A stretch of 50,014 bases of DNA from an uncultured Acidimicrobiales bacterium (lineage in GTDB: Bacteria; Actinomycetota; Acidimicrobiia; Acidimicrobiales; SZUA-35): the NCBI GenBank assembly GCA_938021675.1, contig CALIFY010000011.1:1-50014 (forward strand). Reading direction: 5' to 3'. Under the pieces are notes generated by a model that saw nothing but the letters and a program-made list of their open reading frames with translations, had not been told where the DNA came from and ran no database searches. Numbering within the stretch: the stretch's first letter is position 1; each line of letters starts with the position of its first letter. Both the position numbers and the translations under genes were made by a program. Of this stretch, positions 3,827 through 26,626 are shown in pieces.

Positions 3827-4066
3827 CTACTTGTAGCGGTAGGTGATCCGGCCCCGGGTGAGGTCGTATGGCGTCAGTTCGACTTGGACCTTGTCTCCGG
3901 GGAGGATGCGGATGTAGTGGCGCCGCATCTTTCCAGAGATATGGCCCAACACATTGTGACCATTCTCAAGCTCAACCCGGAACATGGCGTTCGGGAGCGA
4001 CTCGGTAATGGTGCCTTCGAGCACGATCGCATCTTCTTTGTGCTTTGGCAGGACAAGCCCCTTCAT
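3827..4066 (-). CDS. infA: Translation initiation factor IF-1
   Basis: IF-1 is a small OB-fold protein that binds the 30S A site during initiation. The core ([20 protein letters not shown], then [17 protein letters not shown] and [13 protein letters not shown]) is unmistakable. The ATG at 4066 gives 79 residues, slightly longer than the usual 72-73 because of an N-terminal [17 protein letters not shown] at 4078 is an alternative and neither start has a strong ribosome binding site. It is now first gene of its own unit, because a 20-kb block separates it from adk. A good promoter lies at 4169-4197. Confidence 0.94.
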
Positions 4067-4471: not shown

Positions 4472-5173
4472 ATGAGCGGCGAGGTCATCCTCGTCGTCGA
4501 AGACGAGCCAACCATCGCCGAAGCCATCGCCTCCCGCCTCCGCAGCGAGGGATACGAAGTTTCGGTCGCCATCGATGGTCCTGGAGCGGTCGAGCGGTGC
4601 TCGGAACTGGCGCCAGACCTGGTGGTTCTCGACCTGAACCTCCCCGGGTTCGATGGAATCGAGGTATGCCGACGGATTCACTCCTTTCGGCAAGTTCCGG
4701 TGGTGATGTTGACAGCGCGCGACGACGAGACCGACATGTTGGTTGGACTCGGCGTTGGCGCCGACGATTACCTCACAAAACCGTTCTCCCCTCGCGAGCT
4801 GGTGGCCAGGATCAAGGCGGTGTTGCGACGGGCCGCCGCAGCCGGCAGCGGCACAGGGCCCACGTTGTCGTTCGGCCCGGTGAAGATCGACCCCTCGACC
4901 CGCCGAATCACCGAGGCCGGCGGCGATGTCCATCTCACACCAACCGAGTTCGACCTTCTCCGGGCCCTCGCAGAGGCAGGCGGCGCGGTGCTCAGCCGGG
5001 AGCAACTACTGGCGATGGTGTGGGGGTACCGGGACGGATCGGGCGCCCGCACGGTCGACAGCCACATCCGGTCGGTCAGAGCGAAGATCTCGACCGACCT
5101 CATCCGAACGGTCCACGGCGTCGGGTATGCACTCAACAAGGCAGCAATCCCTGATCGGGGGGCCACGAGATGA
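4472..5173 (+). CDS. OmpR/PhoB-family response regulator
   Basis: This 233-aa protein has a receiver domain (about 4-118) and an OmpR-type winged-helix DNA-binding domain (about 135-226). The receiver carries acidic residues Asp11/Glu12, phosphoacceptor Asp54 in LVVLDLNLPG, Thr81 and Lys103 in YLTKPF, so all key residues are intact. The output domain shows LTPTEFDLLRALAEAGGAVL and RTVDSHIRSVRAKI. It overlaps the following kinase gene by four bases (ATGA), so they form a two-component operon. The target genes are unknown; the neighbouring DUF4173 gene is a reasonable guess. Related to MprA/PhoP-type regulators, but I cannot assign an orthologue. Confidence 0.93.
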   Translation: MSGEVILVVEDEPTIAEAIASRLRSEGYEVSVAIDGPGAVERCSELAPDLVVLDLNLPGFDGIEVCRRIHSFRQVPVVMLTARDDETDMLVGLGVGADDYLTKPFSPRELVARIKAVLRRAAAAGSGTGPTLSFGPVKIDPSTRRITEAGGDVHLTPTEFDLLRALAEAGGAVLSREQLLAMVWGYRDGSGARTVDSHIRSVRAKISTDLIRTVHGVGYALNKAAIPDRGATR

Positions 5174-6237
5174 CCCTCCCCCGCCCGCTCGAACAAATCC
5201 CGTCGATCAAAGTCAAGCTGTCCATCCTGATCGTGGCCGCGGTAGCCATGACCGCCACCACCTCTCAGATCGGATTCTGGCTCGGGTGGCCGGTTTGGAT
5301 CCGACCGATCGTGTCTGGAGCCGCCGCTCTACTCATGGTCCAGTTTCTAGCCCGAGGCATGACCCAGCCGCTCCGATGGATGGCCGAGGCGGCGACGGCG
5401 ATGGCCGAGGGCAACTACAGCCGCAGAGTGAACGATGCAGCCGCAGATGAGGTCGGCGACCTCGCCCGGTCATTCAACGCCATGGCCGCCGAACTGGCCG
5501 AGACCGACCGGCAACGCAAAGAGTTTGTCGCCAACGCCTCACACGAGTTGCGAACACCGGTCGCCGCGTTACGAAGCATGTTGGAGAACCTGGTCGACGG
5601 CGTCGGACAACCCGATACCGACACGCTCAACCGGATGCTGGCGAGAGCAGAACATATGTCAACCCTCGTCGGTCAACTTCTCGACTTGTCCCGGCTGGAC
5701 TCGGGGCTCGGTCTAGACAACGTTCGTCCGGTCGACCTTGGCGACCTCCTCCACGAGGTGGCCGAAGAGGTAATGACCACTCACCCTCGCTCGTCGGTGA
5801 TCGTTCGGTCGCCGATGGGACTCCGAATCGATGGTCACCCCGATCGACTACGGCAGGTGTTCGTAAACGTCGTCGGGAACGCGGCCCGATTTTCCCACCC
5901 CGGCGAGCCGGTGCTGGTAACCGCCACCCAGCACGACGGCTCTGCCGGGGTGGCGATTCGTGACACCGGCCCCGGCATACCGGCCGAGGAGCGACACAAG
6001 GTCTTCGAGCGTTTCTGGCAAGCCGGGGGAACAGCACGCACCGGTGGTGGCGGCGCCGGACTGGGGTTGGCCATAAGCAAACAGATCGTCGATCAACACG
6101 GCGGAACGATCGAACTGAGCGAAAACAAGCCGACGGGAGCCTGCTTCGTGGTGACCCTGCCCCGAGTCCAACCGATCCACCCCACGGCCGCTCCGGCCAA
6201 CGAGCAAGCGATCCGACCGATCCGCCTCGTCTCCTAG
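5170..6237 (+). CDS. Membrane sensor histidine kinase without a large sensor domain
   Basis: This 355-aa kinase has two closely spaced hydrophobic segments (about 15-36 and 44-62) with only a few residues between them, so there is no periplasmic sensor domain. A HAMP domain (about 62-115) follows, then the dimerisation/phosphoacceptor helix with His125 in ANASHELRTP. The ATPase domain has the N box (NVVGNAARFSHPG), G1 (DTGPGIP) and G2 (GGGGAGLGLAI). It is translationally coupled to the response regulator. It probably senses within the membrane or through a partner protein. Confidence 0.92.
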   Translation: MTLPRPLEQIPSIKVKLSILIVAAVAMTATTSQIGFWLGWPVWIRPIVSGAAALLMVQFLARGMTQPLRWMAEAATAMAEGNYSRRVNDAAADEVGDLARSFNAMAAELAETDRQRKEFVANASHELRTPVAALRSMLENLVDGVGQPDTDTLNRMLARAEHMSTLVGQLLDLSRLDSGLGLDNVRPVDLGDLLHEVAEEVMTTHPRSSVIVRSPMGLRIDGHPDRLRQVFVNVVGNAARFSHPGEPVLVTATQHDGSAGVAIRDTGPGIPAEERHKVFERFWQAGGTARTGGGGAGLGLAISKQIVDQHGGTIELSENKPTGACFVVTLPRVQPIHPTAAPANEQAIRPIRLVS

Positions 6238-10867: not shown

Positions 10868-11863
10868 ATGGACCTGTACGCACGACTCAACATTCTCGGC
10901 GGGCATTCGGTCCGGCTGCCCCGGGGCGACCTCGCAACCGCCATCCGGCTCGACAACGATCCGATCTCCCGGGCCAAAAGCTGGGCCGCCCAGGGGGCAG
11001 ACGTCATCCACGTCGTCGATCTCGACGCTGCAGCGCACCGCGACTACCGCAACCGGGCCATGATCGATCAACTGATCAAAGAGGTCGAGCTGCCGGTCCA
11101 AGTGGCCGGTGGTGTCCGGTCACCGCGGGAGGCGACCCGGCTGATCGAAGCGGGCGCCGATCGGGTGGTGATGGGCACCGCAGCGATCGAGAATCAAAAC
11201 ATGGTGTGGGAATTATGCAGAGACCTTCCGGCCAAGATCGTGGTGTCCATCGATGTCCGCCCAGACGACGAGATCGCTATCCGAGGATGGGCAGTCAACT
11301 CTGGACGCTACATGGAAGAGGTTCTCCTGGAGATGTCCGATGCCGGCGTCTCGGCGTTCCTTATCGCCGAGGCAGGCCGCAACGCCTTACTCGAACCGCC
11401 GAACGTCGGCATTTTGGCTCGAGCGCTCACCGCGGTCGACGATGATGTCATCGCCGCCGGAGGGGTACGGCACATAGACGACCTTCAAGACGTCATGGGA
11501 ACGACCGCCGATGGGAAAAGGGTCAAGGGCGTCATCGTTGGCCGCGAAGTAACCCACGGGCGATTCACCCTCGACGAGGCGCAAGCGGTATTGGCCACCG
11601 GGCCCCCGGTGAGAGATGCCGCGGCCCAAGAGGCCGCAGAGGAACCGGATCCAGCAATCGTCGAGTCAGCTCAGCGATACCAGATGTTGGCAAACGAGTT
11701 AGAACGGGCGGCGGCCCAGGCTCGTAATTCGGCTCAGCGTATGCTCGACGGCGAAGTGGCCAGAGGCCAGGCTCACGGTCTGAGTACTGTCGGACATATT
11801 CGCCGGTCCCAACAGCTGATGGACGAGATCGCTATCGACGCCGCCACCCAGCGCACCACCTGA
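10868..11863 (+). CDS. HisA/HisF-like TIM-barrel protein with altered active site and C-terminal extension
   Basis: Residues 1-245 align through the whole barrel with phosphoribosyl isomerase HisA/PriA: SVRLPRGD, DVIHVVDLDAA, VQVAGGVRS, IVVSIDVR, VIAAGGVRHIDDL and GVIVGRE. The first catalytic Asp of HisA, at the end of strand 1 (PA-x-D in the family), is Asn8 here (ARLNIL). The second, Asp129, is kept. The phosphate-binding loop usually reading DGT reads Asn172-Ala-Leu. Residues 250-331 form an extra Ala/Glu-rich helical tail. The ATG follows AGGAGG. No other his gene is nearby. It is probably a paralogue with a different role rather than the histidine enzyme, although activity is untested. 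Confidence 0.8.
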   Translation: MDLYARLNILGGHSVRLPRGDLATAIRLDNDPISRAKSWAAQGADVIHVVDLDAAAHRDYRNRAMIDQLIKEVELPVQVAGGVRSPREATRLIEAGADRVVMGTAAIENQNMVWELCRDLPAKIVVSIDVRPDDEIAIRGWAVNSGRYMEEVLLEMSDAGVSAFLIAEAGRNALLEPPNVGILARALTAVDDDVIAAGGVRHIDDLQDVMGTTADGKRVKGVIVGREVTHGRFTLDEAQAVLATGPPVRDAAAQEAAEEPDPAIVESAQRYQMLANELERAAAQARNSAQRMLDGEVARGQAHGLSTVGHIRRSQQLMDEIAIDAATQRTT

Positions 11864-12785: not shown

Positions 12786-13988
12786 TCAGGACGCCGATAG
12801 TTTCTTCTGAAGCGGCGTTGGGAAGCTTGGCTTCACGACAACGTCACCAACAAAGTTGGTCACTCGCTCGACCTCCCTATCGATGAGCGCTCGATGGTCG
12901 GTCCCGACCGCTTCGAGAAGTTCTACGACCACCGCACCATCGCGTTGTTGCGACCACCCTCCGACGATCCGACCATCAACCCAGACGGTCGGTCCGATGT
13001 TGCCGTTGCGATCGAAGAGGCAGCGCTCATGTTCGCCGAGAAACCACCCCCGTTCCTTCCAACCCATGGGAGTCGGGTCGAGCGACGGAAGCAGCGTGGC
13101 CCACGGCGCATCCGAATCGAACGTCTCCAAGTCGTCGATATTCGAATCGGGGAGCACGAATCCGGTTGTCTCCCCTCCCAGCGAAACTTCGACGGGGTCG
13201 ATGGCCGCGAGGGCCGCTCGGGTTTTCGTTTTGGTCCAGCCGGTCCACCACGCGATATCGGTCAACGTTCCCGGCCCGAAGCGAGCCAGCCACCGACGCA
13301 CCAGTTCACTCGATGCCACCGTGGGGGTGGGGTCATCGGGCGGCGGCGCCCCGTTGGCCAGCCACCGGTCTCGGCGATGCCATCGATACTGTCGACCGGT
13401 CCAGTTTCCGGCCGGACGGCCTCGGGCCAACAGTCCCTCGACGGCCATCAAGGCCAGCACTCGGCTGGTAGCACCGGCTTCGACGGCGTTCTTTGTTCCC
13501 GCCCCCATGGTGATCTTGGTTCCCAGTGACGGAATCGCCGACGTCAACTCCCGAGCCGATCGGCCCTCGTCTCCAAGGGCGTCGAGAACGTCGGCTGACA
13601 CGTCGGCCAACCAACGGTCCGGTTTTTCGAGACCTGAGTCCGACAGAAAGCGGAGCAGTCGTCGCCGCTCGACGGCAGCCACATCGATCGACGACGATCG
13701 CTCAACCACCGGTAGGGCGTCGAGCGATGCCACGAACAAGGTGCGCCGCATCGCCAGGGTGCGGAGTAACGTCCGCCGCTCGAACAAGGCCGCCTCGATG
13801 TCACCGACCGTGACGCCAGCCACCCTGGCCCCAACCGACAAGAAGATGGTGGCCGGATCGGTGGCGTGAAGAACCACGAGGTCATCCACCACTCCTTCCA
13901 CGGCACCTTGGGCCAGGTCGGTCGGTCTGGCCAGTCGATGCCGTTCGGCCAACAAGGCCCGTCGCTGTTCGACCGAAATGCGCTGCAC
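12786..13988 (-). CDS. Winged-helix DNA-binding protein, AlkZ-like (HTH_42) family
   Basis: I start this 400-aa protein at the GTG at 13988 (VQRISVEQRRALLAERHRL), preceded by a strong GGAGG. A longer upstream frame lacks similarity. The family is recognised by the N-terminal segment just cited, by FLSVGARVAGVTVGDIEAALFERR and by the late LLPSLDPTPMGWKERGWFLGEH. AlkZ-type DNA glycosylases that unhook crosslinks carry a Gln-x-Gln motif after the first helices. At the corresponding place this protein has His41-Ala-Thr43 (LHATDPAT), so it belongs to an AlkZ-like branch whose activity I cannot state. It lies downstream of the giant DUF11 gene on the same strand, separated by a hairpin. Confidence 0.8.
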   Translation of the reverse strand: MQRISVEQRRALLAERHRLARPTDLAQGAVEGVVDDLVVLHATDPATIFLSVGARVAGVTVGDIEAALFERRTLLRTLAMRRTLFVASLDALPVVERSSSIDVAAVERRRLLRFLSDSGLEKPDRWLADVSADVLDALGDEGRSARELTSAIPSLGTKITMGAGTKNAVEAGATSRVLALMAVEGLLARGRPAGNWTGRQYRWHRRDRWLANGAPPPDDPTPTVASSELVRRWLARFGPGTLTDIAWWTGWTKTKTRAALAAIDPVEVSLGGETTGFVLPDSNIDDLETFDSDAPWATLLPSLDPTPMGWKERGWFLGEHERCLFDRNGNIGPTVWVDGRIVGGWSQQRDGAVVVELLEAVGTDHRALIDREVERVTNFVGDVVVKPSFPTPLQKKLSAS

Positions 13989-14016
13989 GCAACGACCTCC
14001 ATAGCATGTTGGTCCG

Positions 14017-14043
14017 CTGACTCCGGTCACATGCCGGAGACAG
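14017..14043 (-). terminator. Hairpin between the giant DUF11 gene and the winged-helix gene
   Basis: Arms CTGACTCCGG (14017-14026) and CCGGAGACAG (14034-14043) pair over ten positions with one mismatch around a seven-base loop. It lies about 25 bases past the DUF11 stop. No T run follows on the minus strand, so it may be a weak or factor-assisted terminator or an mRNA-stabilising structure. Confidence 0.4.
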
Positions 14044-14068
14044 CTTGCGCTAGCTACGGTACCGACAC

Positions 14069-17000
14069 CTACACCGAGGAACGTTCGGTCCCCCACCAAC
14101 GATTTGCCGCGGTCAGTGTCAGGCCGAGCATGAGCAGCCCAATCGCCGCCACGAACAGCGCACCGGAACGGCTACCGGTGATTGGCAAGAAGGGTATGGG
14201 CACCGGTGGCTGACCATCAACATCCGATTGGATTTCGGCGGTGACCGAGGCGACCACCGGGTCGATCCCGTCGCCGGCAACGCTGGCACGATTCACCAAC
14301 TCCAAACCGGGCCGATCTTCGGCGACCGCGGTCACCACCACCGACACGGGCTCGGAGACCGCCACCGAACCAAGGTCACATCGAACGGTGACGCCATCGA
14401 GGGCACACGAACCGGAATCGGAGGCAACCGATGCACCGACGAGTGTCAGGCCATCGGGCATCTGATCCTCGACGACAACTCCGGTGGCGCGAGCCGGTCC
14501 GAGATTGTCGACGACGATGGTGTAGCTGGCGGTCGCCCCTGGCGCCAGCGACGTGTCGTCGACCAGCTTGTCTAGGGCGAGTGTCGATTCCCGGCCAACT
14601 TCGCCGGTCACCGACGCCGTGTTGCCGTCCGGGTCGGGGTCGGCCACATCGCCCGATACCGAAGCCGAGTTGGTCAGCGAGCCCGTCGCCCCCTCTTCGA
14701 CGTTGACGGCCACGACGACCGAAGACGTACCGTTGGCTGGCACGGTGCCCAGTGAACAGGTGACCGTCGCTCCAGCGGCGATACACGAGGGATCACTGTC
14801 CGCCGACTCGAAACTCAGCCCGACCGGCAGGTCGTCGGTGACGACCACGCCAGGCGCATCCGATGGACCGGCGTTTGTCACGGTCAGTTCGTATTGGGCC
14901 GGTCGGCCGGCCGACAGCTCACCGGCCAACGTCTTCTCCAACGAAAGGTCGGCGATCGCTTCGACCACCGACTCATCGGAGGTTGCGTTGTTTGTAGGAT
15001 CTGGGTCGGGGGTCGAGGAGCTGACCGCGGCGTTGTTGGCCAGCTGAAACTCGTCGCTGACGAACGGTTCGACGAGTCCGGTCACCTCGAACGACTCTGT
15101 GGCCCCTGCCTGAACGGTGCCCAGTGGACACTCGATCGCTCCGCCCGATGCCTCACACCCACCGGTGTCCGATACGTAGGTCACTCCGGCCGGCAGTGCG
15201 TCGGCAACGACAACGTCGAGAGCATCGGAAGGTCCGGCGTTGGCCACCGTTATCACCCAGCTCAGCTCTTGACCGGCCACCGGATCGTTCACTCTGTCTT
15301 TGGTAATCAACAGATCAGCCGACGTGTCTACTTCGACCTCTTCCCCTTCGGTGCTTGGTGGGGAGTCGTCACCGGTGGCGGTCGCCTCGTTGACCAAACT
15401 CGACTGCTCCACCGTTGCCGAGTCGACCAGAACCGTTATCTCGAAGTCGGTAACCTGGCCCACACCGAGCGTGCCTACGACGCAACTCACCGTCGATGTC
15501 GTAGCCCCCGGATTGTTGGTGCATCCGGCCGAGGCGGAAACGAAAGAGGTTCCGGCCGGTAGTTGGTCGACGATCGACACGTTATCGGAGACCGACGGGC
15601 CAACATTTGTCACCGACAAGGTGTAGGTCAGCGCCTCACCAGCCACTACGGGTTGCGGGGCGGCCGTCTTTGTCAGCTCCAGACCGGCGCTGCGTCCGAC
15701 GGTCGAGTCGTTTGTGTCGCCGTTGTCGCTTGGGTCCGGGTCGGCGGTATCGGAGGAGACCGCCGCGTCGTTTGTGATCACCGCCCCCTCTTCGAGCGAG
15801 TCATCGACGGCCACGGTTACGGTGACGACGATCGAGGCGCCAGCCGGGATCGTTGCATACGTGCATGAGACTGCGCCTGTGCAGGCACCGTCGTCTACCG
15901 AAACCAATGTCGTTCCGGCCGGAAGGTTGTCGACCAGTACCGCGTTCTGGGCGTCCGATGGGCCGTGGTTTTCGATGGTGATGGTGTAGTCGAACTCGCT
16001 ACCGGCCACCACCGGTTCCGACGGACCGGACTTCACCACCGACAGGTCGGCGCTGGCCACCACCGGCGTCTCCTCGTCTTCTGTGTTGTCGGACGGGTCG
16101 GGGTCCGGCGTGTCTGAGGTAACCGACGCCTGGTTTTCCAGGGTTGAACCATCGATCACGTCGCTGTCGAGGATGAATGCGATGACGACCGAAACGGTTT
16201 CTCCCGCTGGGACCACCGGGACGGTGCACACAACGTTTGAGCCCACCAGCCCACAGTTGGCGCTCGATGTCGTGGGATCGAACGTCGCACCGGCTGGCAC
16301 TGGGTCGGTCACCACGATGCCGAGCGCGTCGGACGGACCGTCATTGGTCACCGTCACGTCGTAGCTGATCGGATCGCCGGGAACCGCCGGTGAGGTCAAG
16401 GCGGTTTTGACGAGCGATAGGTCGGCTTCTGGCCCAACGCCGGCCGTGTCATCGCCGTCGTTGTTCGATGGGTCTGGGTCCGGCGTATCGGAGGTGACCG
16501 AGGCGGAGTTGGCGATCGGATCGACCGTCGCCGGATCGATGTCGGCCACGATGGTAAAGATGATCGTTTCGCCGGCCAGTAGGTCGGCTTCGGTGCAGGT
16601 CACGTCTTGAGGGGCGGCGGGAATGGTCGAGCAGGCCGTTGAAGACGACGGCACGCCGGGGGCGGGCACGAAGGTCAACGATGGCGGCAGGCTGTCGGTG
16701 ACCGAAACGTTGTTGGCGATCGACGTACCGGCGTTGGTTACCTCGATTTCCCATGTCATGGGCTCGCCGGGTACCGCCGGGTCGGTTACCGCTCGCTTGA
16801 TCAACGACAGGTCGGCTTCGAAGGTAACTTCGGTTTCGTCATCATCGGTGTTGTTGGCCGGGTCGGGGTCCGGGCTGTCGGACGTCACCGTGGCCGAGTT
16901 CACCGTTGGGGTCGCCGCCGAGTCCGTCACGAAGACTTCAATGTCGAACGTCACCGCGTCGCCGGCGGCGATGGTGCCTAGTACACACGTGACCAGGCCG

Positions 17001-20000
17001 GCTGAAGCCGAACAACCCGGGTTTGTCGACGAGACGAAGTTCATCCCGATCGGCAAGAAATCGGAGACCTCAACGCCGTCGGCGTCCGACAGGCCGTCGT
17101 TGGTCACGGTCAGCGTGTACACGTGGTTGGTGCCGGCCACCACCGCACCGTCGGATGTCTTGTCCATCACCAGGTCGCTCTGGCGGTTGACGGTCGTCGT
17201 CTCCGTGGCGGTCACCGGGTCGCTGGAGTCGCTGTCGACGGTCGCCTCGTTCGAGAGTACCGTCGGGTCGGCCAATGACGAGTCGACATCGGCGGTGACG
17301 ACGATAGTTTCCGAATCGCCGGCGGCGATGGTCGGGAACAGGCACGACACCGTATTGACCGACGTCGAGCAGTTGGACGTATTGTCGACACCGACCAGGG
17401 TTACCCCAACCGGGAGCGCATCGACGATCGTTACATTGTCGGCATCGGACGGACCGAGATTGACCACCTCGATCGCCCACTGAACCGGCCCGCCGGCGAC
17501 GACCGGATCGACCAGATCCCTTTTGTCGATGTCGAGTTCGGAGTCGCGTATCACTCCCGCCGTGTCGGAACTGGTGTTGTTGTCGGGTTCGGGGTCATCG
17601 GTGTCGGAGGTGATGGCGGCCTCGTTCAACAGTCCGCTGCCGGCGGCTTCATCCGAGTCGACGTCGACCACGATGGTCAGGGTGTCGCTGGCCAGGGCGG
17701 CCAACGTGGGGACCACGCAGGTGAGCACCTGATCAGCCGCCGTGCACCGGCTATCGGAGGAAACCGCATCGAACGTTGTTCCTACGGGCAGCGTGTCGGT
17801 CACTACCACGTTTTCGGCATCCGATGGGCCAGCGTTTTCGATGGCCAAGTTCCAGGTGTACGGCAGACCGGCGGTGGCGAACCCACTGCCGTCCTTGACG
17901 ATTGAAAGGTCTGCTGAGTTCTCGACGGGAGTCTCGACATCGTCGTCATTGTCGGTCGGGTCGGGATCATTCTCGTCGGCTGAGACAGACGCCGAGTTTG
18001 TCACCGCCCCTCCATCGGGGAAATCGGCTGGAACGTCGACGACGATGTTTAGTGAGAGGGATCCGCTCGCCGCCACAAGGGGAACCAGGCAGGTCACCGT
18101 GGTCCCGGCCGCCGAGCACGACGAATCGGACAGCGCGGGATTGAACGTCGTGCCGGCCGGAATGGTGTCGGTCACTACTACCGAGGTTGCGGAACTGGGA
18201 CCGGCGTTTGAGATCGTCAGCTGATACGGATGGAACTCGCCGGCTACCAAGACTGGTTTCGTGGTCGATTTGGCCAGGGCGATGTTGGCCGCCTTCTCCA
18301 CATCGACGTCTACCGAGTCACCATTGTCCAATGGGTCTGGATCGTCGGTATCGGACGAAACCGAGGCGTTATTGGTCAGGGTCGAGCCGTCGACTTGCTC
18401 GGGATCGACGTCGGCCACGACGGTGACGACTGCGGTGCCGCCGTCGACGAGGGTGGCCTGGGTACACGTGGCGGTCTGGCCGGAGTCCCCGCAGGTCATC
18501 GTCGGCGAGGTCACCGAATCGATTGTCAACCCGGTGGGCAAGGTGTCGGTCACCGAGACGGCGAGCGCATCGGACGGGCCGTCGTTTGTAACGGTCAGAA
18601 CGTAGGTGACGGTCTGGCCGGCAACGACCGGATTCGGCGTTGCGGTCTTGGCCAGCCGCAGGTCGGCCTCGGCGGCCACCGTCACATCGACCGAATCCTC
18701 GTTGTTCGACGGGTCGGGGTCGGGGTCTGAGCTCGTGGCCTGAGCGGTATTGGTCAGTATTGTGTTGTTAGCGACCGACGAATCGATGTCGACATCGACG
18801 GTGATGGTGACGGTGTCTCCGGCCGCCACGGCGAGGATGGAACAGCCGAGGTTGGTTCCGATTCCAGAACATGTGCCATCGGTGGTGTTGACGCCGGTGA
18901 TGGTCATGCCGGTGGGCAGGGTGTCCGCAACCACGACGTTCGAGGCATCGGATGGCCCGGCGTTCGACACGGTGAGAGTGAACGTGGCATTGCTCCCGGC
19001 CACCACCGTTGAGCTCGACGCCGCTTTGTCGATTGAGAGGTCTGCTTCGCGGTCGACCTCGGTCTGGGCTGAGTCGTCGTTGTTCGACGGATCGGGATCG
19101 GTGGCGTCGCTCTCGACCGACGCGTCATTCTCGATCGATGTGCCATCGGGGACCGATGAGGCGACGTCGGCGACGACGGTCAGATTGACGACCTGACCTG
19201 GTGTCAAGGTTCCCAGGTTGCAGGTCACGGTGGCGTTGCTCGACGTGCATTGGGGGCTCGAACCGGTGGGCTGAAAGCTCAGGCCTGCGGGGAGTGTGTC
19301 GGTCACCACGGTTCCCGCCGCGTCGGACGGCCCGTCGTTGGTGACCGTGAAGGAATAGGTGACGGTCTCCCCCGCTACCGCCGTGGCTGGAGCGGTCTTG
19401 GTTAACGACAGGTCGGCCTGTGGGAGGGCGGGAACGGTGTCGGTACTCTCGTCGTTGTCGGGATCGGGGTCGGGGGTCGGTGAGGACACCGTTGCGGTGT
19501 TACCGATCGGCCCTGATGCATCGGCTGCGACGTCTACCACCAGGGTCAACACAACCTGGCCCGATGGCGGGATGGTGCCGAGGGTACAGACCACCCCGGC
19601 CGCACATGAAGCACTCGACCCGGCAGGATTGAAGGACAGCTCGGGTGGCAACACATCGTTCACCACCACGTTCAGCGCGTCGGACGGTCCGTTGTTTATC
19701 ACCGTGATGGTGTACGTGCCCGTCGTTCCTGGAACCAGGCTCGGGGCGTCGGCCTCTTTGATGATTTCCAGATCGGCTTCTTCTCCGACTTCGATGTCGG
19801 CCGAGTCATCGTTGTTGCCCGGATCGGGGTCGGTCTCGTCGGCAGCCGCGGTGGCCTCGTTGGTGTAGGTCGCGGCGGCGACTCCAGGGTCGACGTCGGC
19901 GACGATGGTGAACGTCACCGGTGCGCCGACAGCCAACGTCGCCGCCGAGCAGGTCACATCGGCCGGAGCGGTACCGGCGACACAGGCGCTGTCCGACAGG

Positions 20001-23000
20001 GCCGAATTGAATGTGAACCCGGCCGGGAGGTCGTCGTCGACACTAATGTTTGTCGCCGTCGATGGGCCGTCGTTGGTTACCGTTACCGAGAATGTGGCGA
20101 CGCCTCCAGCCAGGATCGGTGAGGTCAGGGTCGACTTGGCGGTGACCAGATCGGCTTCTTTCCCCACGGTCGTCTCGACATCGTCGCTGTCGTTACTCGG
20201 GTCGCCGTCCGGGGTGTCGCTGCCGACGGTCGCCGTATTGGTCAGCAACGTTGCGTCGGCCGTTGCCGGGTCGATGGTGACGGTGATATCGACGGTTACC
20301 GTGGCCCCGGCGGCCAAGGTGGCGGTCGTACAGGTCACCATGGCCCCCGAATCGGTACACGTGGCGGTGCCGGCGGTGACGGTTGCGGAGTCGAACGACG
20401 TGCCTCCCGGCAGCGTGTCGCTGATCTCCACCGCCTGAGCATCGGACGGGCCATCGTTGTAGACCGACACCGTGTAGGTCACCTGGTTGCCAGCCACCGC
20501 CGTGGCCGGACCGGTTTTCGTCATTTGCAGGTCGGCTGCGGTGTCGACCGTGGTCTCTTCGGTGTCGTCGACCTGGGGGCTGACGTCTCCCGATGCCGAT
20601 GCGGTGTTCGAGATGATGGTCCCGTCGGCCAGGTCGGCTCCGACGATCGCCGTAATCTCCACGACGTAGGTGTCTCCGGCGGCCAGCACACCGATGGTGC
20701 AGGTTACGGTCCCGCCGGATTCGGCACAGTTGGTTGGGTCATCGGTGCTGTCGAATGTCAGGCCGGCCGGAAGGGCGTCGGTGAGGGTCACCCCCGAATC
20801 GTCGGACGGGCCGAGATTTTCGACCTCGATACGATAGGTCACGGTTTGGCCGGCGAGCACGGGATCCGACAAGTCGTCTTTGGCGATTCGCAGCTCGGAA
20901 TCCCGGTCGATGTCGGTGGTCACCTCGGAGTCATTGTCCAAAAGGTCGGGGTCGGTCTCGTCACCGGAGATCGATGCCGGGTTCAGCAGCTGGGCGGTGT
21001 CGGCCAAGCTCGAGTCGGTGTCGACGACAAAGCTGACGGAGCCGCCGGTACCGGCCGGGATGGCGCCGACGGCACAGGTGACGGTGCCCCCGGATTCGGT
21101 GCAGTCCGACGATGAGCTAAAGGTGGCGCCGACCGGCAACGTGTCGGTGATGACCACTCCGGACGCGTCGGACGGGCCCTCGTTCTGATAGGTGAGGGTG
21201 TAGGTGATTTGGGTCCCGGCCACAATGGTGGTCGCGTTGTCGTCTTTGACGATCGACAGGTCGGCTTGCCGTTCAACGGTGTCGGTCGTCTCGCCCGTGT
21301 CATTCGACGAGTCGGGGTCATCGGTGGTACTCGACACCTCTGCGGTGTTTTCGATCGTTGCCCCGTCGGCGAGATCTGAGTCCACGTCGAACACCAACGT
21401 GAACGACTCGGTCGCACCGTCGGCCACGGTGCCCGCGGCACAGGTAATAGTGCCGACACTCAAGGTGCAGTCGCTGCTGCTGAGCGATGCATCGAAGGTC
21501 AGGCCGGTCGGCACCGCGTCGGTCACCGTCACCGCCTGGGCGTCCGATGGACCGTTGTTGGTGACCGAGATGTCGTAGCTGATCGTGCCCCCGGCCACCA
21601 CCGGCGAGGTCAGCGTCGTCTTGTCCACCGCCAAGTCGGCTTCGGTCACGACGGTCGTTTCGACGGTGTCGGTATTGTTCGATGGGTCGCCTTCGGGGTC
21701 ATCGCTGGTGGCGTCGACCCGGTTCTCCAGCGTCGTGCCTGCGGTGGCTGACGGTGGCACGGCGACCACCACGACGATCGTTTCGGTACCTCCGTCGGCA
21801 ATGGACGGCCAGGTACAGGTCGGCGTGGCGTCGCACGACCCGGAGCCCGACGGGGTCGCGCTGACCAGGGTGGCCCCCGACGGCAGCGAATCGGTGACAC
21901 TGACGTTCTGGGCGTCGGACGGTCCGTCGTTCGACACCGCGACGTTGTAGGTGAGTTGGTTGCCGGCCACCACGGTTGCCGGCCCGGTCTTTTCGACCAC
22001 CAAGTCGACTTCTCGTTCGACGTCGGTGCATTCCCGGTCGAGGTTGTCATCGAGGTCGTGTTCGTGGGTATCAGAAGTAACCGAGGCCGGATTGCAGATG
22101 TTCGGCACGGTCAGTGCGCCGTCGACATCGACCACGATGGACGGCGTCTCGCTATCTCCGGCCGCCAACGACGGGTAGGTGCAGGTCACGGTCTCCGGCG
22201 GGCCGGCGGCGGTCACCGAGCACGCCGGGTCTGACAGTGAGGCGTCAAATGTTGTTCCGACCGGAAGGGTGTCGGTTATCGTCACGTTCTGGGCGACCGA
22301 CGGACCCTCGTTTTCTATGGTGACTTCGTAGGTGAGTTGTTCCCCGGCGAGGACGGGGTCGGACAGATCGACCTTGTCGATCGTGAGGTCGACGAGGGGC
22401 TCGACCGGGTCGGTCGTCGTGTTGCTGTCTGCGCTGAACGGTTCGTTTATGAATTTGGCGATGTAGTCGAGCTGGGCTTGGTTGACGATGTCGGTGCCCT
22501 CGGTGCCGGGATCGACCGTTACCTGATAGGAGACCTCGTATCCGTGACCTCCTTGGGAGAGAGGCGCCACCTCACCACCGACCGCTGCGGTCGCCCCAAC
22601 CCCGACGTTGAAGTTCACCGCCGATCCGTCGAACCAGGCCGTGTCGTCACCGGCGGCGTCGGTCCGCCCACCGACTGGAGAGTCGTCTTCGATGATCGTC
22701 AGGCTGCCCGGCACGTAGGTGGTGCCAGCAGGGATGACATCGGCCAGGGTGGTCTCGATCGATGGGTCATCCCCGGTGTTGTCGAAGCTGAGGTTGTATT
22801 GGATGACGTCGCCGGGATGAACCTGTTCACCGTTTAGGTCGGTCGATTCCTTTTCGAAGTTCACGGTGAGGTTGGGAACGTAAATATCGATGTTGGTCGT
22901 CACCGCGGTGGGAAAGAATCCGTCACCGTCTGTCCCGATGGTGACCGTGGCGGTGGTCGACCCCGGTGGCACCAGCCCCGACGTCTCGATGATGTCGGCG

Positions 23001-23905
23001 TCGAAGCCGAGGGTGTTGGCCGGATATGACGGGTTGAGTCCGCCGTTGTAGACGGCGTTGTTCGTCAACGACGAATTGAAAAAGTTGTCTGGTGGGTTCG
23101 TAGCGTTCGTCAGGGGCGTTCCATTGAACTCGGCATAGTCGCCGGCGAAGCCGATGTCGCCTTCGGAGGCGACGACACCGATCTCAGCATCGATCGGCCC
23201 CACCGGAGGGGCGGTGAAGCCACTGACCGGAATATTGATGACCCCACCGCTGCCGACGAACTGAAAGCCATGGTTGACCGTCAGGTTCCGCCATGGCTCG
23301 GCCGGGTCCTCCTCGACGACGATCAGTGTCCAGCCCCCGTAGGTGGCGCCCGAACCGGGGGTGACCGCGATGTCGCCAACCCCGTAGGTGCCGGTCCCGC
23401 CGGCCTGGACCATGGTGGTTACGTCGACAAAGCCGGTGTAGTAGTTGTCGTTGCCGTTCCAGTCATCGAAGAACGAAGCCGTCAAGTTGACGTAACCACC
23501 GCTGGCCGGGGTGGAGAACTTGACGTCGTCTTTGTCGTCGTTGGCACCGGTGTAGTACCCGGCCCAGTACAGGCCGGCCCACAGAATCGAGCCTCCGGCC
23601 GGCAGCGTGTACGTCGCGGTGCTTGACGTGGTGGTGGTCGGGTCGCCGTCGACATCGATCAAGACCATGTTGGCCCCAAACGCATTGTTTGTGCTGTTTC
23701 CGCCGGCCTGAGCGGCGGCGCATGTGGCGAGCGCGGCACTACAGGTGGCCACGGTATTGGCCACGTACTCGATGTCGCCTGGGGCGTTTATCGAGAATAC
23801 GGGGGCGAAGGCGGTGTCGGCGGCGGCTGGAGCTGGCGGTAACGCCACCGCCACTGCCGCCACCACTACTAGGGTCGCTATTGCCGCGCTAAGAAACCGG
23901 GCCAT
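14069..23905 (-). CDS. Giant secreted DUF11-repeat surface protein with LPITG sorting signal
   Basis: This gene encodes 3278 residues without interruption. It has a signal peptide (1-29, cleavage expected after Ala27-Ala28-Ala29), then an N-terminal domain (about 30-350) of the type that heads large DUF11 proteins (INAPGDIEYVANTV, LPAGGSILWAGLYWAGY). There follow 23 DUF11-type beta-sandwich repeats of about 115-125 residues, each opening ADLSxxK and containing TVTNDGPSDAxxVxVTDxLP. All but the first carry a Cys pair 5-16 residues apart. The linkers are acidic (TPDPDPSNNxD). The C terminus has LPITG at 3240-3244, a hydrophobic helix and NRWWGTERSSV, a class of cell-wall sorting signal. It is probably a sortase-anchored adhesin or stalk; no sortase gene is in this window. 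It starts 69 bases after adk on the same strand, with no convincing ribosome binding site or terminator between them. Confidence 0.9.
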   Translation of the reverse strand: MARFLSAAIATLVVVAAVAVALPPAPAAADTAFAPVFSINAPGDIEYVANTVATCSAALATCAAAQAGGNSTNNAFGANMVLIDVDGDPTTTTSSTATYTLPAGGSILWAGLYWAGYYTGANDDKDDVKFSTPASGGYVNLTASFFDDWNGNDNYYTGFVDVTTMVQAGGTGTYGVGDIAVTPGSGATYGGWTLIVVEEDPAEPWRNLTVNHGFQFVGSGGVINIPVSGFTAPPVGPIDAEIGVVASEGDIGFAGDYAEFNGTPLTNATNPPDNFFNSSLTNNAVYNGGLNPSYPANTLGFDADIIETSGLVPPGSTTATVTIGTDGDGFFPTAVTTNIDIYVPNLTVNFEKESTDLNGEQVHPGDVIQYNLSFDNTGDDPSIETTLADVIPAGTTYVPGSLTIIEDDSPVGGRTDAAGDDTAWFDGSAVNFNVGVGATAAVGGEVAPLSQGGHGYEVSYQVTVDPGTEGTDIVNQAQLDYIAKFINEPFSADSNTTTDPVEPLVDLTIDKVDLSDPVLAGEQLTYEVTIENEGPSVAQNVTITDTLPVGTTFDASLSDPACSVTAAGPPETVTCTYPSLAAGDSETPSIVVDVDGALTVPNICNPASVTSDTHEHDLDDNLDRECTDVEREVDLVVEKTGPATVVAGNQLTYNVAVSNDGPSDAQNVSVTDSLPSGATLVSATPSGSGSCDATPTCTWPSIADGGTETIVVVVAVPPSATAGTTLENRVDATSDDPEGDPSNNTDTVETTVVTEADLAVDKTTLTSPVVAGGTISYDISVTNNGPSDAQAVTVTDAVPTGLTFDASLSSSDCTLSVGTITCAAGTVADGATESFTLVFDVDSDLADGATIENTAEVSSTTDDPDSSNDTGETTDTVERQADLSIVKDDNATTIVAGTQITYTLTYQNEGPSDASGVVITDTLPVGATFSSSSDCTESGGTVTCAVGAIPAGTGGSVSFVVDTDSSLADTAQLLNPASISGDETDPDLLDNDSEVTTDIDRDSELRIAKDDLSDPVLAGQTVTYRIEVENLGPSDDSGVTLTDALPAGLTFDSTDDPTNCAESGGTVTCTIGVLAAGDTYVVEITAIVGADLADGTIISNTASASGDVSPQVDDTEETTVDTAADLQMTKTGPATAVAGNQVTYTVSVYNDGPSDAQAVEISDTLPGGTSFDSATVTAGTATCTDSGAMVTCTTATLAAGATVTVDITVTIDPATADATLLTNTATVGSDTPDGDPSNDSDDVETTVGKEADLVTAKSTLTSPILAGGVATFSVTVTNDGPSTATNISVDDDLPAGFTFNSALSDSACVAGTAPADVTCSAATLAVGAPVTFTIVADVDPGVAAATYTNEATAAADETDPDPGNNDDSADIEVGEEADLEIIKEADAPSLVPGTTGTYTITVINNGPSDALNVVVNDVLPPELSFNPAGSSASCAAGVVCTLGTIPPSGQVVLTLVVDVAADASGPIGNTATVSSPTPDPDPDNDESTDTVPALPQADLSLTKTAPATAVAGETVTYSFTVTNDGPSDAAGTVVTDTLPAGLSFQPTGSSPQCTSSNATVTCNLGTLTPGQVVNLTVVADVASSVPDGTSIENDASVESDATDPDPSNNDDSAQTEVDREADLSIDKAASSSTVVAGSNATFTLTVSNAGPSDASNVVVADTLPTGMTITGVNTTDGTCSGIGTNLGCSILAVAAGDTVTITVDVDIDSSVANNTILTNTAQATSSDPDPDPSNNEDSVDVTVAAEADLRLAKTATPNPVVAGQTVTYVLTVTNDGPSDALAVSVTDTLPTGLTIDSVTSPTMTCGDSGQTATCTQATLVDGGTAVVTVVADVDPEQVDGSTLTNNASVSSDTDDPDPLDNGDSVDVDVEKAANIALAKSTTKPVLVAGEFHPYQLTISNAGPSSATSVVVTDTIPAGTTFNPALSDSSCSAAGTTVTCLVPLVAASGSLSLNIVVDVPADFPDGGAVTNSASVSADENDPDPTDNDDDVETPVENSADLSIVKDGSGFATAGLPYTWNLAIENAGPSDAENVVVTDTLPVGTTFDAVSSDSRCTAADQVLTCVVPTLAALASDTLTIVVDVDSDEAAGSGLLNEAAITSDTDDPEPDNNTSSDTAGVIRDSELDIDKRDLVDPVVAGGPVQWAIEVVNLGPSDADNVTIVDALPVGVTLVGVDNTSNCSTSVNTVSCLFPTIAAGDSETIVVTADVDSSLADPTVLSNEATVDSDSSDPVTATETTTVNRQSDLVMDKTSDGAVVAGTNHVYTLTVTNDGLSDADGVEVSDFLPIGMNFVSSTNPGCSASAGLVTCVLGTIAAGDAVTFDIEVFVTDSAATPTVNSATVTSDSPDPDPANNTDDDETEVTFEADLSLIKRAVTDPAVPGEPMTWEIEVTNAGTSIANNVSVTDSLPPSLTFVPAPGVPSSSTACSTIPAAPQDVTCTEADLLAGETIIFTIVADIDPATVDPIANSASVTSDTPDPDPSNNDGDDTAGVGPEADLSLVKTALTSPAVPGDPISYDVTVTNDGPSDALGIVVTDPVPAGATFDPTTSSANCGLVGSNVVCTVPVVPAGETVSVVIAFILDSDVIDGSTLENQASVTSDTPDPDPSDNTEDEETPVVASADLSVVKSGPSEPVVAGSEFDYTITIENHGPSDAQNAVLVDNLPAGTTLVSVDDGACTGAVSCTYATIPAGASIVVTVTVAVDDSLEEGAVITNDAAVSSDTADPDPSDNGDTNDSTVGRSAGLELTKTAAPQPVVAGEALTYTLSVTNVGPSVSDNVSIVDQLPAGTSFVSASAGCTNNPGATTSTVSCVVGTLGVGQVTDFEITVLVDSATVEQSSLVNEATATGDDSPPSTEGEEVEVDTSADLLITKDRVNDPVAGQELSWVITVANAGPSDALDVVVADALPAGVTYVSDTGGCEASGGAIECPLGTVQAGATESFEVTGLVEPFVSDEFQLANNAAVSSSTPDPDPTNNATSDESVVEAIADLSLEKTLAGELSAGRPAQYELTVTNAGPSDAPGVVVTDDLPVGLSFESADSDPSCIAAGATVTCSLGTVPANGTSSVVVAVNVEEGATGSLTNSASVSGDVADPDPDGNTASVTGEVGRESTLALDKLVDDTSLAPGATASYTIVVDNLGPARATGVVVEDQMPDGLTLVGASVASDSGSCALDGVTVRCDLGSVAVSEPVSVVVTAVAEDRPGLELVNRASVAGDGIDPVVASVTAEIQSDVDGQPPVPIPFLPITGSRSGALFVAAIGLLMLGLTLTAANRWWGTERSSV
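14174..14188 (-). other. Codons for the LPITG sortase motif
   Basis: The five codons encode Leu-Pro-Ile-Thr-Gly, followed by about 18 hydrophobic residues and a short tail with Arg and Glu. The order motif, membrane helix, charged tail is that of Gram-positive cell-wall sorting signals. Confidence 0.8.
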
Positions 23906-23974
23906 GGCGCACCATCGGCCGTTCTCGTTCGCTGAGAAGCGCGCGCCGCGGTTTTTGCCGAGAAAGTTATCTAT

Positions 23975-24571
23975 TTAGTGGGTTACCCCGCCGTCGATGG
24001 CGGCGAAGAGTCGATCACTTACTTCATGCTCGGCACCGATCCCGTCGACCCTTAGCACCAATCCCCGTTCATCGAACCAGTCGATGACCGGAACGGTTTC
24101 GCGGTCGTACAGCGCCAGGCGTTTGGCGATCCCCTCATCGGTATCGTCATTGCGGCCCCTGGACTTCATACGTGCCGTCACCTCTTCTAGAGCGACTTCG
24201 AGGTTGACTACGGCATCCAACGACGCCCCCGATTCGCTCAGCAGCCCGAGCAACGCATCGGCCTGGCTCGTCGTCCGCGGAAATCCGTCGAGCACAAACC
24301 CGGATTCTTGGACGTCGGAGTGGGCCAGTCGCTCCCGCACGAGGGCAATGGTTAGGTCGTCGCTCACCAAGCCACCGGCGGCCAAAATGGGTGCAACCTG
24401 GCTGCCGATTTCGCTCCCGGCGGCGATCGCGGCCCGGAACATGTCGCCCGTCGACAGGTGTACGACGCCGTACTGTTTCACTATCCGGTCGCACTGTGTG
24501 CCCTTGCCGGCGCCCTGGCGACCGAAAATAACCAGACGTAATGGCTCAGACCGATGCTCGTTCGCGCTCAT
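23975..24571 (-). CDS. adk: Adenylate kinase
   Basis: This 198-aa enzyme interconverts ATP + AMP and 2 ADP. The P-loop is GRQGAGKGT (17-25). LSTGDMFRAAIAAGSE and GFVLDGFPRTTSQADAL form the AMP-binding part. The lid is the short type (KSRGRNDDTDEGIAKRLALY), without a zinc finger. I prefer the ATG at 24571, after AGGGTGG; a GTG at 24583 would add VVHP. It follows secY by 94 bases, the standard place. The map gene that normally follows is missing, and the giant DUF11 gene follows instead. Confidence 0.95.
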   Translation of the reverse strand: MSANEHRSEPLRLVIFGRQGAGKGTQCDRIVKQYGVVHLSTGDMFRAAIAAGSEIGSQVAPILAAGGLVSDDLTIALVRERLAHSDVQESGFVLDGFPRTTSQADALLGLLSESGASLDAVVNLEVALEEVTARMKSRGRNDDTDEGIAKRLALYDRETVPVIDWFDERGLVLRVDGIGAEHEVSDRLFAAIDGGVTH

Positions 24572-24665
24572 GGGGTGTACCACCCTACACCGAACGGCTC
24601 CGCTATCCCCATCTCCATTCGCACTGCGCCCACGACGGCGCAGCGAGCCCCGAACACCCGGTCGG

Positions 24666-26003
24666 TTACTTGAGGAAGCCTTCGTAGTTTCGAGCCATCA
24701 GCTGGCTGTTGACCTGCTTCATCAACTCCAACGAGACGCCGACGCCGATCAGGATCGAGATGCCGGAAAAGCCCAACAGCCCGGCGTTGTTGTTTCCTGC
24801 ACCGATGAGCTGGAACAGTAACGCCGATGGAATCAGAGCGATTCCCGCAACCCACATCGCCCCGGGGAGGGTGATCCGGTTCAAGATTTTCGACAGATGC
24901 TGTTCGGTTTGGGGCCCCGGCCGGACGCCGGTGATGAAGCCGCCAGACTTGCGGAGTTCGTCGGCTCGACGAGCCGGGTCGAACGCGATGGCGTTGTAGA
25001 AGTAGGCAAAACCGACGATCAGAAGGCCGAACACCACCAGATAGGCGGGATCGGTTGGTGTGAAGAGACGATCTTGGATGAACGTGCGTACGTTGTCGCC
25101 CCAGTTGGGGTCAAGCTGGTTCCCGCTGGTCGGCAAGCTGGTGGCAATAAGGCTTGGTAGCTGCAGAAGTGAACTGGCAAAGATGACCGGAATGACGCCG
25201 GCCTGGTTGACCTTGAGCGGAATGTACGTCTTATTGCCGCCATATTGCTTGCGGCCGACAACCCTCTTCGGGAAGTTGATGGGGATCCGACGCTGGCCTT
25301 GTTCGATGAAGACGATGCCGAGGCAAAGACCGACCAAAAGGAGCAGAGCGACAGCCAACCACACCCAACCGCGAAGCTGGTAGATGTTGACTCCGAGCCC
25401 GGGGAGACCAGCCACCACGGAAGCGAAGATCAGTACCGACATACCGTTGCCGAGGCCCTTTTCGGTTACCAGTTCACCCATCCACATAAGGATCGCCGTT
25501 CCGACGGTCACGCAGCTGATGGCCAGCAACATCCGTCCGATCGAACCGTCTGGGAACAGGCCAGGGTCGTAGCCAAAGATCTGTTCCGGGCTCCGGTTGA
25601 TCAAGAACACCAGGCCAGAACTCTGGATCAAGGCAAGGGCCATAGTGACGTATCGGGTCCACTGGGTAATCTTTCGCTGACCCACCGCCCCCTGAGACTG
25701 CCATTCCTCAAGCTTGGGAACGGCCACCGTCAGAATCTGGATCACGATCGATGACGTGATATAGGGCAGAATGCCAAGCCCGAAGAGGTTGAGCACACCG
25801 CCGCTGCCGGTGAAGATCGTGAGATACCCGAACACACCGCCCTGGTTCTCGTCTGCCCGGTTTCTCAACGTCTCGATCCCATCGAGGCTGACGCCGGGGG
25901 CTGGGATCTGAGCTCCCAGTCGATAGAGCACGATGACGAAGAGGGTGAACAGGATCTTGTTCCGCAACTCCGACGTGCGGATGACGTTGAGAAGCGTTTC
26001 CAT
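24666..26003 (-). CDS. secY: Protein translocase subunit SecY
   Basis: SecY (445 aa) is the channel of the Sec translocon. The N terminus (METLLNVIRTSELRNKILFT), the periplasmic IPAPGVSLDG region, ten hydrophobic helices and the cytoplasmic loops (WTRYVTMALALIQS, RRIPINFPKRVVGRKQYGG) match the family. The C terminus ends MARNYEGFLK. It lies 137 bases after rplO and 94 before adk. It will also export the downstream giant protein, which may share its transcript. Confidence 0.96.
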   Translation of the reverse strand: METLLNVIRTSELRNKILFTLFVIVLYRLGAQIPAPGVSLDGIETLRNRADENQGGVFGYLTIFTGSGGVLNLFGLGILPYITSSIVIQILTVAVPKLEEWQSQGAVGQRKITQWTRYVTMALALIQSSGLVFLINRSPEQIFGYDPGLFPDGSIGRMLLAISCVTVGTAILMWMGELVTEKGLGNGMSVLIFASVVAGLPGLGVNIYQLRGWVWLAVALLLLVGLCLGIVFIEQGQRRIPINFPKRVVGRKQYGGNKTYIPLKVNQAGVIPVIFASSLLQLPSLIATSLPTSGNQLDPNWGDNVRTFIQDRLFTPTDPAYLVVFGLLIVGFAYFYNAIAFDPARRADELRKSGGFITGVRPGPQTEQHLSKILNRITLPGAMWVAGIALIPSALLFQLIGAGNNNAGLLGFSGISILIGVGVSLELMKQVNSQLMARNYEGFLK

Positions 26004-26140
26004 AGTCGTAGCTACCTTAGAAGAAGGGTCAGAACGAGAAGATGTTCAAGACGAAAAGATACTCAGTAAGAATCTAGAGCCATGCCGAATCAAAGCCGTT
26101 CAGGCGGACCGGCCGACAAGCGGCCAAGCCCACCAGCCGA

Positions 26141-26626
26141 TCATCGGTTGGTCAGTGCATTTCCTTGGGCCGCCGGCCGCACGCTGAAGGGCAGCGGAAG
26201 CTTCTCCACCGTACCACCAGCACCGGTGATGGCGGCTTCGGCTGACGCCGAGAACGCATGGGCCGACACGCTGACCGCGCCGGAAAGCTCTCCCCGGCCA
26301 AGGATCTTGACCAGGGCGCCCTTGCCGATCAATCCTTTGTCAAACAAGGTCTCCGGTGTGATCTCGGTAAGACCAGATTCAGCGATCGTGTCCAGGTTGA
26401 TGGCCTGGTACTCGACACGAAACGGGTTGTTGAAGCCGCGAAGCTTGGGCAACCGCTGCTGGAGCGGGAGCTGTCCACCTTCGAACCCGACCCGGACAGT
26501 ATTTCGGGCGCGCTGACCCTTGGTCCCTCGACCGGCCGTCTTGCCACCTTTGCCACCGATACCGCGACCGACGCGCTTGCGCCGCCGCCGCGATCCTTCG
26601 ACTGGCTGTAGATCATGGATCTTCAT
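26141..26626 (-). CDS. rplO: 50S ribosomal protein L15
   Basis: L15 (161 aa) binds 23S rRNA late in assembly. The N terminus [20 protein letters not shown] and the glycine-rich [18 protein letters not shown] stretch are diagnostic, as is [15 protein letters not shown]. Length is normal to slightly long. The start overlaps rpmD by four bases. An imperfect inverted repeat (26133-26151) covers its stop codon, just before the 137-base gap to secY, and might attenuate expression there. Confidence 0.95.

Follow-up and report, generated by a model that had tools for sequence, protein, structure and literature searches.

A giant gene for a putative fibrillar adhesin, probably inserted between adk and an AlkZ-like gene in an Acidimicrobiales genome

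The giant gene described here lies directly behind adk at a break of a ribosomal gene cluster, and it probably encodes a fibrillar adhesin from a patchily distributed, presumably mobile family and was probably inserted between adk and an AlkZ-like gene. The window analysed (50,014 bp) is an entire contig of an uncultured Acidimicrobiales bacterium, whose genome consists of 99 contigs (4.45 Mb). The protein would be exported by Sec and held to the wall by sortase through its LPITG motif, and a stalk of 22–23 DUF11/CLIPPER-type domains would carry the conserved N-terminal head at its tip. Each of these domains is presumably closed by an isopeptide bond, probably together with a disulfide. The family is patchy and is probably spreading among the genomes of the order, and the putative insertion site falls within an adk–infA interval that was variable already. 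The ancestral control was probably exerted by an own WhiG/flagellar-type promoter just before a leaderless start codon; this promoter is apparently weakened in the window's copy, thus some read-through from adk is possible, though unproven.

Architecture of the giant protein

The open frame is uninterrupted and starts with ATG. As the first-pass annotation had described, its translation is a sortase-type surface protein with a signal peptide (MARFLSAAIATLVVVAAVAVALPPAPAAA, identified by eye) and a C-terminal end read off as LPITGSRSGALFVAAIGLLMLGLTLTAANRWWGTERSSV, which comprises LPITG, a membrane helix and a tail (Table 1). The PF01345 (DUF11) profile of Pfam scored 1508 bits against a gathering threshold of 24.6 and matched 22 stretches, and TIGR01451 of NCBIfam likewise counted 22 DUF11-type repeats. 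Reading of the translation revealed an Ig-like segment at about aa 348–504, upstream of these stretches, thus the 23 repeats counted in the first pass correspond to 22 profile-supported ones and a divergent one. Three further giant DUF11 frames of 3297, 3049 and 2439 aa (L168, L169 and L170) were found on contigs C50, C5 and C67 of the same genome.

Table 1. Positions of the features discussed, in order along the window
Feature	Position	Strand	Basis or remark
infA	3833..4039	-	resumption point of the ribosomal cluster
Two-component system adjoining infA	4472..6237	+	both genes have relatives at 11 of the 35 adk loci
AlkZ-like gene	12786..13988	-	likely start GTG at 13988, GGAGG from 14000
GC-rich 6-bp hairpin in the giant/AlkZ interval, without T run	14021..14039	-	partly by reading
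Giant sortase-type surface protein, 3278 aa	14069..23905	-	translation and Pfam/NCBIfam profile matches
LPITG sorting signal, membrane helix and short tail, including stop codon	14069..14188	-	reading of translation
DUF11 (CLIPPER) repeats, n = 22, aa 505–3228, K/D/N triad and Cys pair	14222..22393	-	
Divergent first Ig-like domain, aa 348–504	22394..22864	-	reading of translation
Head domain, aa 29–347, 319 aa	22865..23821	-	relatives (not the window's copy) match DUF3344; no PDB match
Signal peptide, about aa 1–29	23819..23905	-	direct reading of translation, without signal-peptide predictor
adk–giant gap, 69 nt	23906..23974	-	without consensus promoter or terminator
GCCGATGG, WhiG/flagellar-like -10 octamer	23912..23919	-	spacing as in relatives; whole-promoter score at background
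adk	23975..24583	-	NCBIfam; likelier start ATG at 24571, by reading
secY	24666..26003	-	NCBIfam

Five residues (K7, D40, N97, C57 and C66) were invariant across all 22 repeats. In a second alignment, where the Lys belonged to the pattern used for cutting the repeats, one cysteine was kept in 21 of the 22. The residue types of the triad are the same as those of the Lys/Asp/Asn triad bonded in PDB 9IFR, which is reported in the available text of the paper that renamed DUF11 as CLIPPER (PMC12617251). An AlphaFold2 model of one repeat reached a pLDDT of 96, and the Foldseek search with this model returned integrin alpha domains, the BcpA pilin and 9ifr, the latter at rank 10 (E 1.9e-6, TM 0.69). 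We infer from the conserved residues that an isopeptide bond is formed in each repeat, and the cysteine pair would probably form a disulfide in each of them.

Pfam and PDB searches with the window's own head gave no match, and even at E 1 DUF3344 was not reached. Twelve of the 20 aligned head relatives matched PF11824 (DUF3344) at E 1 or better, the best of them at 1.3e-8. The head modelled alone by AlphaFold2 had a pLDDT of 32.5, thus this model was unusable. This conserved head may be the adhesive part of the protein.

The search for a class E/A sortase in the rest of the genome, suggested along with the first description, was successful: four sortase loci were found, one of class E and one of class F scoring above the cut-off and two class F-like ones below it. 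By reading, the giant has all the attributes of an LPXTG protein, namely the signal peptide, the LPXTG motif, the membrane helix and the charged tail, and its relatives end with the sorting motifs LPLTG, LAFTG, LPFTG, LPRTG or LALTG. The protein is accordingly a candidate for covalent wall anchoring via LPITG.

The adk–infA interval

The genes for L15, L6, S8, L5, S3 and EF-Tu are located upstream of secY and adk, and the giant gene follows on the same strand 69 nt behind adk, in agreement with the first-pass annotation, whose naming of secY and adk was confirmed by the NCBIfam profiles. Beyond the AlkZ-like gene, plus-strand genes were found for the two-component system, DUF4153, pirin, VanY, a HisA-like protein and DUF1295. 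The HisA-like protein (10868–11863) scored 178 bits, under the equivalog cut-off of 229, and may have another role. The distance between adk and infA is 19.9 kb, and the best map match lies on a different contig of the genome. Consequently, the original placement of the giant inside the ribosomal spc cluster holds in that the gene adjoins adk, but the cluster is not intact here and the gene sits at its break.

When adk was searched for, it was present in 57 of 61 genomes including the window's own, and 35 adk loci were taken from the 60 relatives searched. Six of these pieces stop within 4 kb of adk, one of them after 412 bases. The comparison of the locus in related genomes, which had been proposed as a check of the operon idea, went against it: neither the head nor the repeats nor the C-terminus of the giant had a match at E 1e-5 anywhere in the 35 pieces (the six short ones included), thus the position of the giant in the spc/ribosomal operon is not kept. 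No report of a giant gene behind adk was found in the searches of open-licence papers either.

infA was located in 28 of the 35 loci, the contig ended first in six, and in L073 it was not found. Measured between alignment ends, the adk–infA interval ranged from 1.7 to 13.4 kb in eight loci of the same genus, from 180 bp to 10.9 kb in 16 loci from other genera of the family, and from 130 to 277 bp in four loci from other families. Within the family, the junction (180 bp to 19.9 kb, the window included) is therefore an open, variable interval. Its annotated contents also vary, including ABC-transporter genes, an MFS transporter, a GMC oxidoreductase, an amylase and peptidases, among others. The response regulator and histidine kinase of the window have relatives in several of these loci (Table 1), on the strand opposite to adk, and this pair may be settled residents of the interval. 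Among the 35 loci, the window genome's own map protein had a match only in L073, which represents another family, immediately behind adk.

In three genomes of the same genus (G001, G003 and G011), an AlkZ-like gene lies directly behind adk. The SecY of these genomes, in the part fetched, is 87–90% identical to that of the window, compared with 69–78% in the other eight genomes of the genus. Since AlkZ directly follows adk in the three congeners closest by SecY, the giant gene was probably inserted between these two genes. A false join at 23.9 kb, by which the piece carrying the giant would have been attached to adk in error, had been raised in the first-pass annotation as a possible refutation. 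The draft state of the genome (99 contigs) and the repetitive nature of the gene could favour such an error, but adk and AlkZ, which flank the giant here, adjoin in these three relatives with their order and orientation unchanged, and an error would therefore take two false joins, both of them precise. In addition, there is no jump in GC content. Thus, we regard an assembly artefact as very unlikely.

Considering the place of the gene and its relatives, a lasting coupling of the giant to SecY or ribosome synthesis is not supported. The results correct the tempting idea of operon coupling. They also show how a wall-anchored adhesin gene can end up within one of the most highly conserved bacterial gene clusters, the adk–infA junction having already been open to insertions in this family.

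Distribution and phylogeny of the head-type giants

Counting the window's own genome, the head was present in 10 of 39 genomes of the family and, in wider searches of the order, in 22 of 298 and then in 26 of 397 genomes. DUF11 itself occurred in 10 of the 12 genomes of the window's genus. The best head match came from another genus (G025, 82% identity), followed by two genomes of another family (G179 and G330, 68%) and G017 (65%), while the sole congeneric copy (G009) was only 49% identical. In another genome of the order, G169, a head-type gene was found whose open frame spans 5239 aa and whose head is 32–37% identical to that of the window.

The giant and its G025 counterpart are collinear, with 58% identity over 3110 aa. 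The identity is 82% in the head, and it drops from about 63% to 44% along the stalk toward the wall. At the DNA level, the two genes are 62–66% identical and the matches are confined to the gene. Between the same two genomes, RpoA is 80%, SecY 65% and adk 57% identical. The annotated neighbours of the giant are GSDH and DUF4143 in G025, PIG-L, YdjC and a HerA-like protein in G017, and a protein kinase, MFS and an SdrD_B protein in G009, and they are unrelated to one another and to adk.

The head tree included 20 heads; G041, G042, G100, G113, G218 and G298 remained outside it, as did the second match from each of G089 and G169 and three genomes found later (G329, G330 and G339). The window paired with G025 (100/97), next to G017 (97/93) and to G179 of another family (100/98), while the congeneric G009 paired with G269, again from another family (100/100). 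The latter two giants (L129:3979-14964 and L146), which are close in the tree in spite of belonging to different families, perhaps represent a second transfer.

Since the relatives of the head cross genus and family lines, the tree suggests horizontal spread, and the 57% and 65% identities of adk and SecY between the window and G025 make an interspecies transfer likely, though unproven. The alternative is an ancient gene of the order that was lost from most genomes and relocated in the present one, with no transfer between species. The low DNA identity of the copies, which in our reading counts against transfer, and the collinearity of the proteins would fit this history, and a patchy head tree would also be obtained from old duplication and loss. 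It is opposed by the two congeneric copies, which lie in separate, well-supported branches, each beside another genus or family, and by the heads of the window and G025 being more alike than their SecY or adk. Hence, purely vertical descent seems improbable to us, and horizontal transfer of the giant is likely.

The upstream element and comparison with known systems

The absence of a convincing terminator between adk and the giant, reported previously, was reproduced, as our scan found no terminator-like site in the 69-nt gap. A sigma-70 consensus scan of 13500–26500 detected no promoter, the RNA fold of 23880–24000 was no better than that of shuffles (z +1.10), and the Rfam scan of the whole window gave nothing at gathering scores, the matches in the adk–giant region being far below them. 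The lack of a new ribosome binding site was also borne out, since no Shine–Dalgarno-like word precedes the start, yet the same is true for 396 of 575 control starts.

A CCGAY element (CCGAT or CCGAC) beginning 13–15 nt before the start was found at 8 of 14 head-type genes, including that of the window, versus 10 of 575 control starts, the motif having been noticed first and tested afterwards on 14 genes that are related to each other. With any five-letter pattern having one degenerate place, at all positions, 400 control draws yielded a maximum of five. Five of the 14 starts had been missed by the automatic rule and were supplied manually, L168 was excluded because its N-terminus is not of the head type, and the controls were those 575 of 731 that had ORFs of 150 aa or more. 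The element was absent upstream of the giant DUF11 frame on C50 (L168), and its strict form was found in neither of two further relatives (L200 and L201). Among more distant heads, it was absent at the likely starts (12 of 15 loci gave a result, several without a clear start), and L187 and L194 had CCGAY at the right spacing, but before unlikely starts.

The -35 spacing and the distance to the start were taken as they are commonly known for flagellar and WhiG promoters. The -10 of these promoters is GCCGATAA, and a published rule for WhiG allows at most two mismatches to the -35 TAAA and this -10 (PMC8325347, available text). The CCGAY element resembles this -10, and RNA synthesis would start about at the start codon. 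The window's candidate keeps GCCGAT with no matching -35; its best whole-promoter score is five mismatches, which 299 of 575 controls equal or better, thus it fails the two-mismatch rule. Its closest relative (L126) has two mismatches and L127 and L129 have three; one control out of 575 satisfies the rule as L126 does. At four mismatches or fewer, the enrichment was modest (7 of 14 head genes versus 84 of 575 controls). Taken together, the motif data and the weak score of the window make an own promoter plausible for the head family and weakened in the window's copy, so that adk read-through is possible.

The head-type giants may be WhiG targets that answer c-di-GMP via RsiG, as the type IV pili of Rubrobacter do, and we put this forward tentatively as something possible rather than probable. 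The window genome encodes a WhiG protein just above the cut-off (344.1 versus 343 bits), FliA_WhiG exceeded the cut-off in all 39 genomes of the family, and L126 obeys the rule of PMC8325347, where RsiG is also reported in three of four Acidimicrobiales; moreover, one species of the order is described without flagella genes in the available part of PMC3910706. The modest whole-promoter enrichment and the failing copy of the window weaken the case. So do the consensus sites of the own genome: GCCGATAA-N6-8-ATG occurred nine times versus once in a reversed control and three sites start ORFs of more than 300 aa, but in the first 120 residues none looked surface-protein-like by reading, thus a WhiG surface-gene regulon could not be recognised. 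The whiG gene (L198:7867-8952) is located between dprA on one side and rpsB on the other, rpsB being preceded by at least one unnamed ORF. For giant adhesins, a connection to WhiG, so far known from sporulation and pili, can thus be put to the test.

The first-pass annotation proposed that expression may be tied to the ribosomal/secretion operon. Part of this survives in a reading where the gene lost its own promoter on landing behind adk and owes most of its transcription to read-through from the ribosomal cluster, in step with growth. The common strand, the short gap free of terminator-like sites, and the background score of the window beside the two mismatches of L126 are consistent with such a capture, but the window's copy still has the -10 core at the spacing seen in relatives, and none of the 35 adk pieces has the same arrangement. 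In GC-rich actinobacteria, moreover, the lack of a consensus terminator is hardly informative. We therefore judge capture by the operon unlikely; read-through from adk is possible, but a designed link to the operon or SecY is unsupported. More speculative still, and quite improbable in our estimation, is the combined scheme of a WhiG-switched giant-adhesin family with leaderless promoters, probably responding to c-di-GMP, of which the window's copy lost its -35 and was rewired from c-di-GMP control to the ribosomal operon; if true, it would be a natural promoter capture by an adhesin gene behind adk. The preferred reading thus remains an inserted adhesin gene with a weakened promoter of its own.

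Compared with the WhiG/RsiG-controlled type IV pili of Rubrobacter, as presented in the available text of PMC8325347, the shared traits are the presence of WhiG and the GCCGAT-type -10 near the starts of the relatives; here, however, a surface adhesin is concerned, and the window's promoter falls below the published rule. The LPXTG surface proteins of Ilumatobacter coccineum, for which 13 ORFs are reported (PMC3910706, available part), come from the same order as the giant. The DUF3344 cluster listed among predicted fibrillar adhesins, with a function termed ambiguous in the accessible text of PMC9210967, is linked to the giant through the 12 of 20 head relatives matching PF11824, while the window's head itself has no match at E 1. 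The giant also resembles the DUF11/CLIPPER adhesins, where CLIPPER domains form part of the stalks (PMC12617251, available text; 9IFR): the tandem DUF11 stalk with a Lys/Asp/Asn triad in each repeat, the signal peptide, the sorting signal and the similar fold found by Foldseek are in common, and the giant differs in its very long stalk (22–23 domains), the cysteine pair per repeat and a head that itself matches nothing in Pfam or PDB. Apart from its great size, the giant is an ordinary adhesin of a known type; its address is unusual and was seen in this genome alone.
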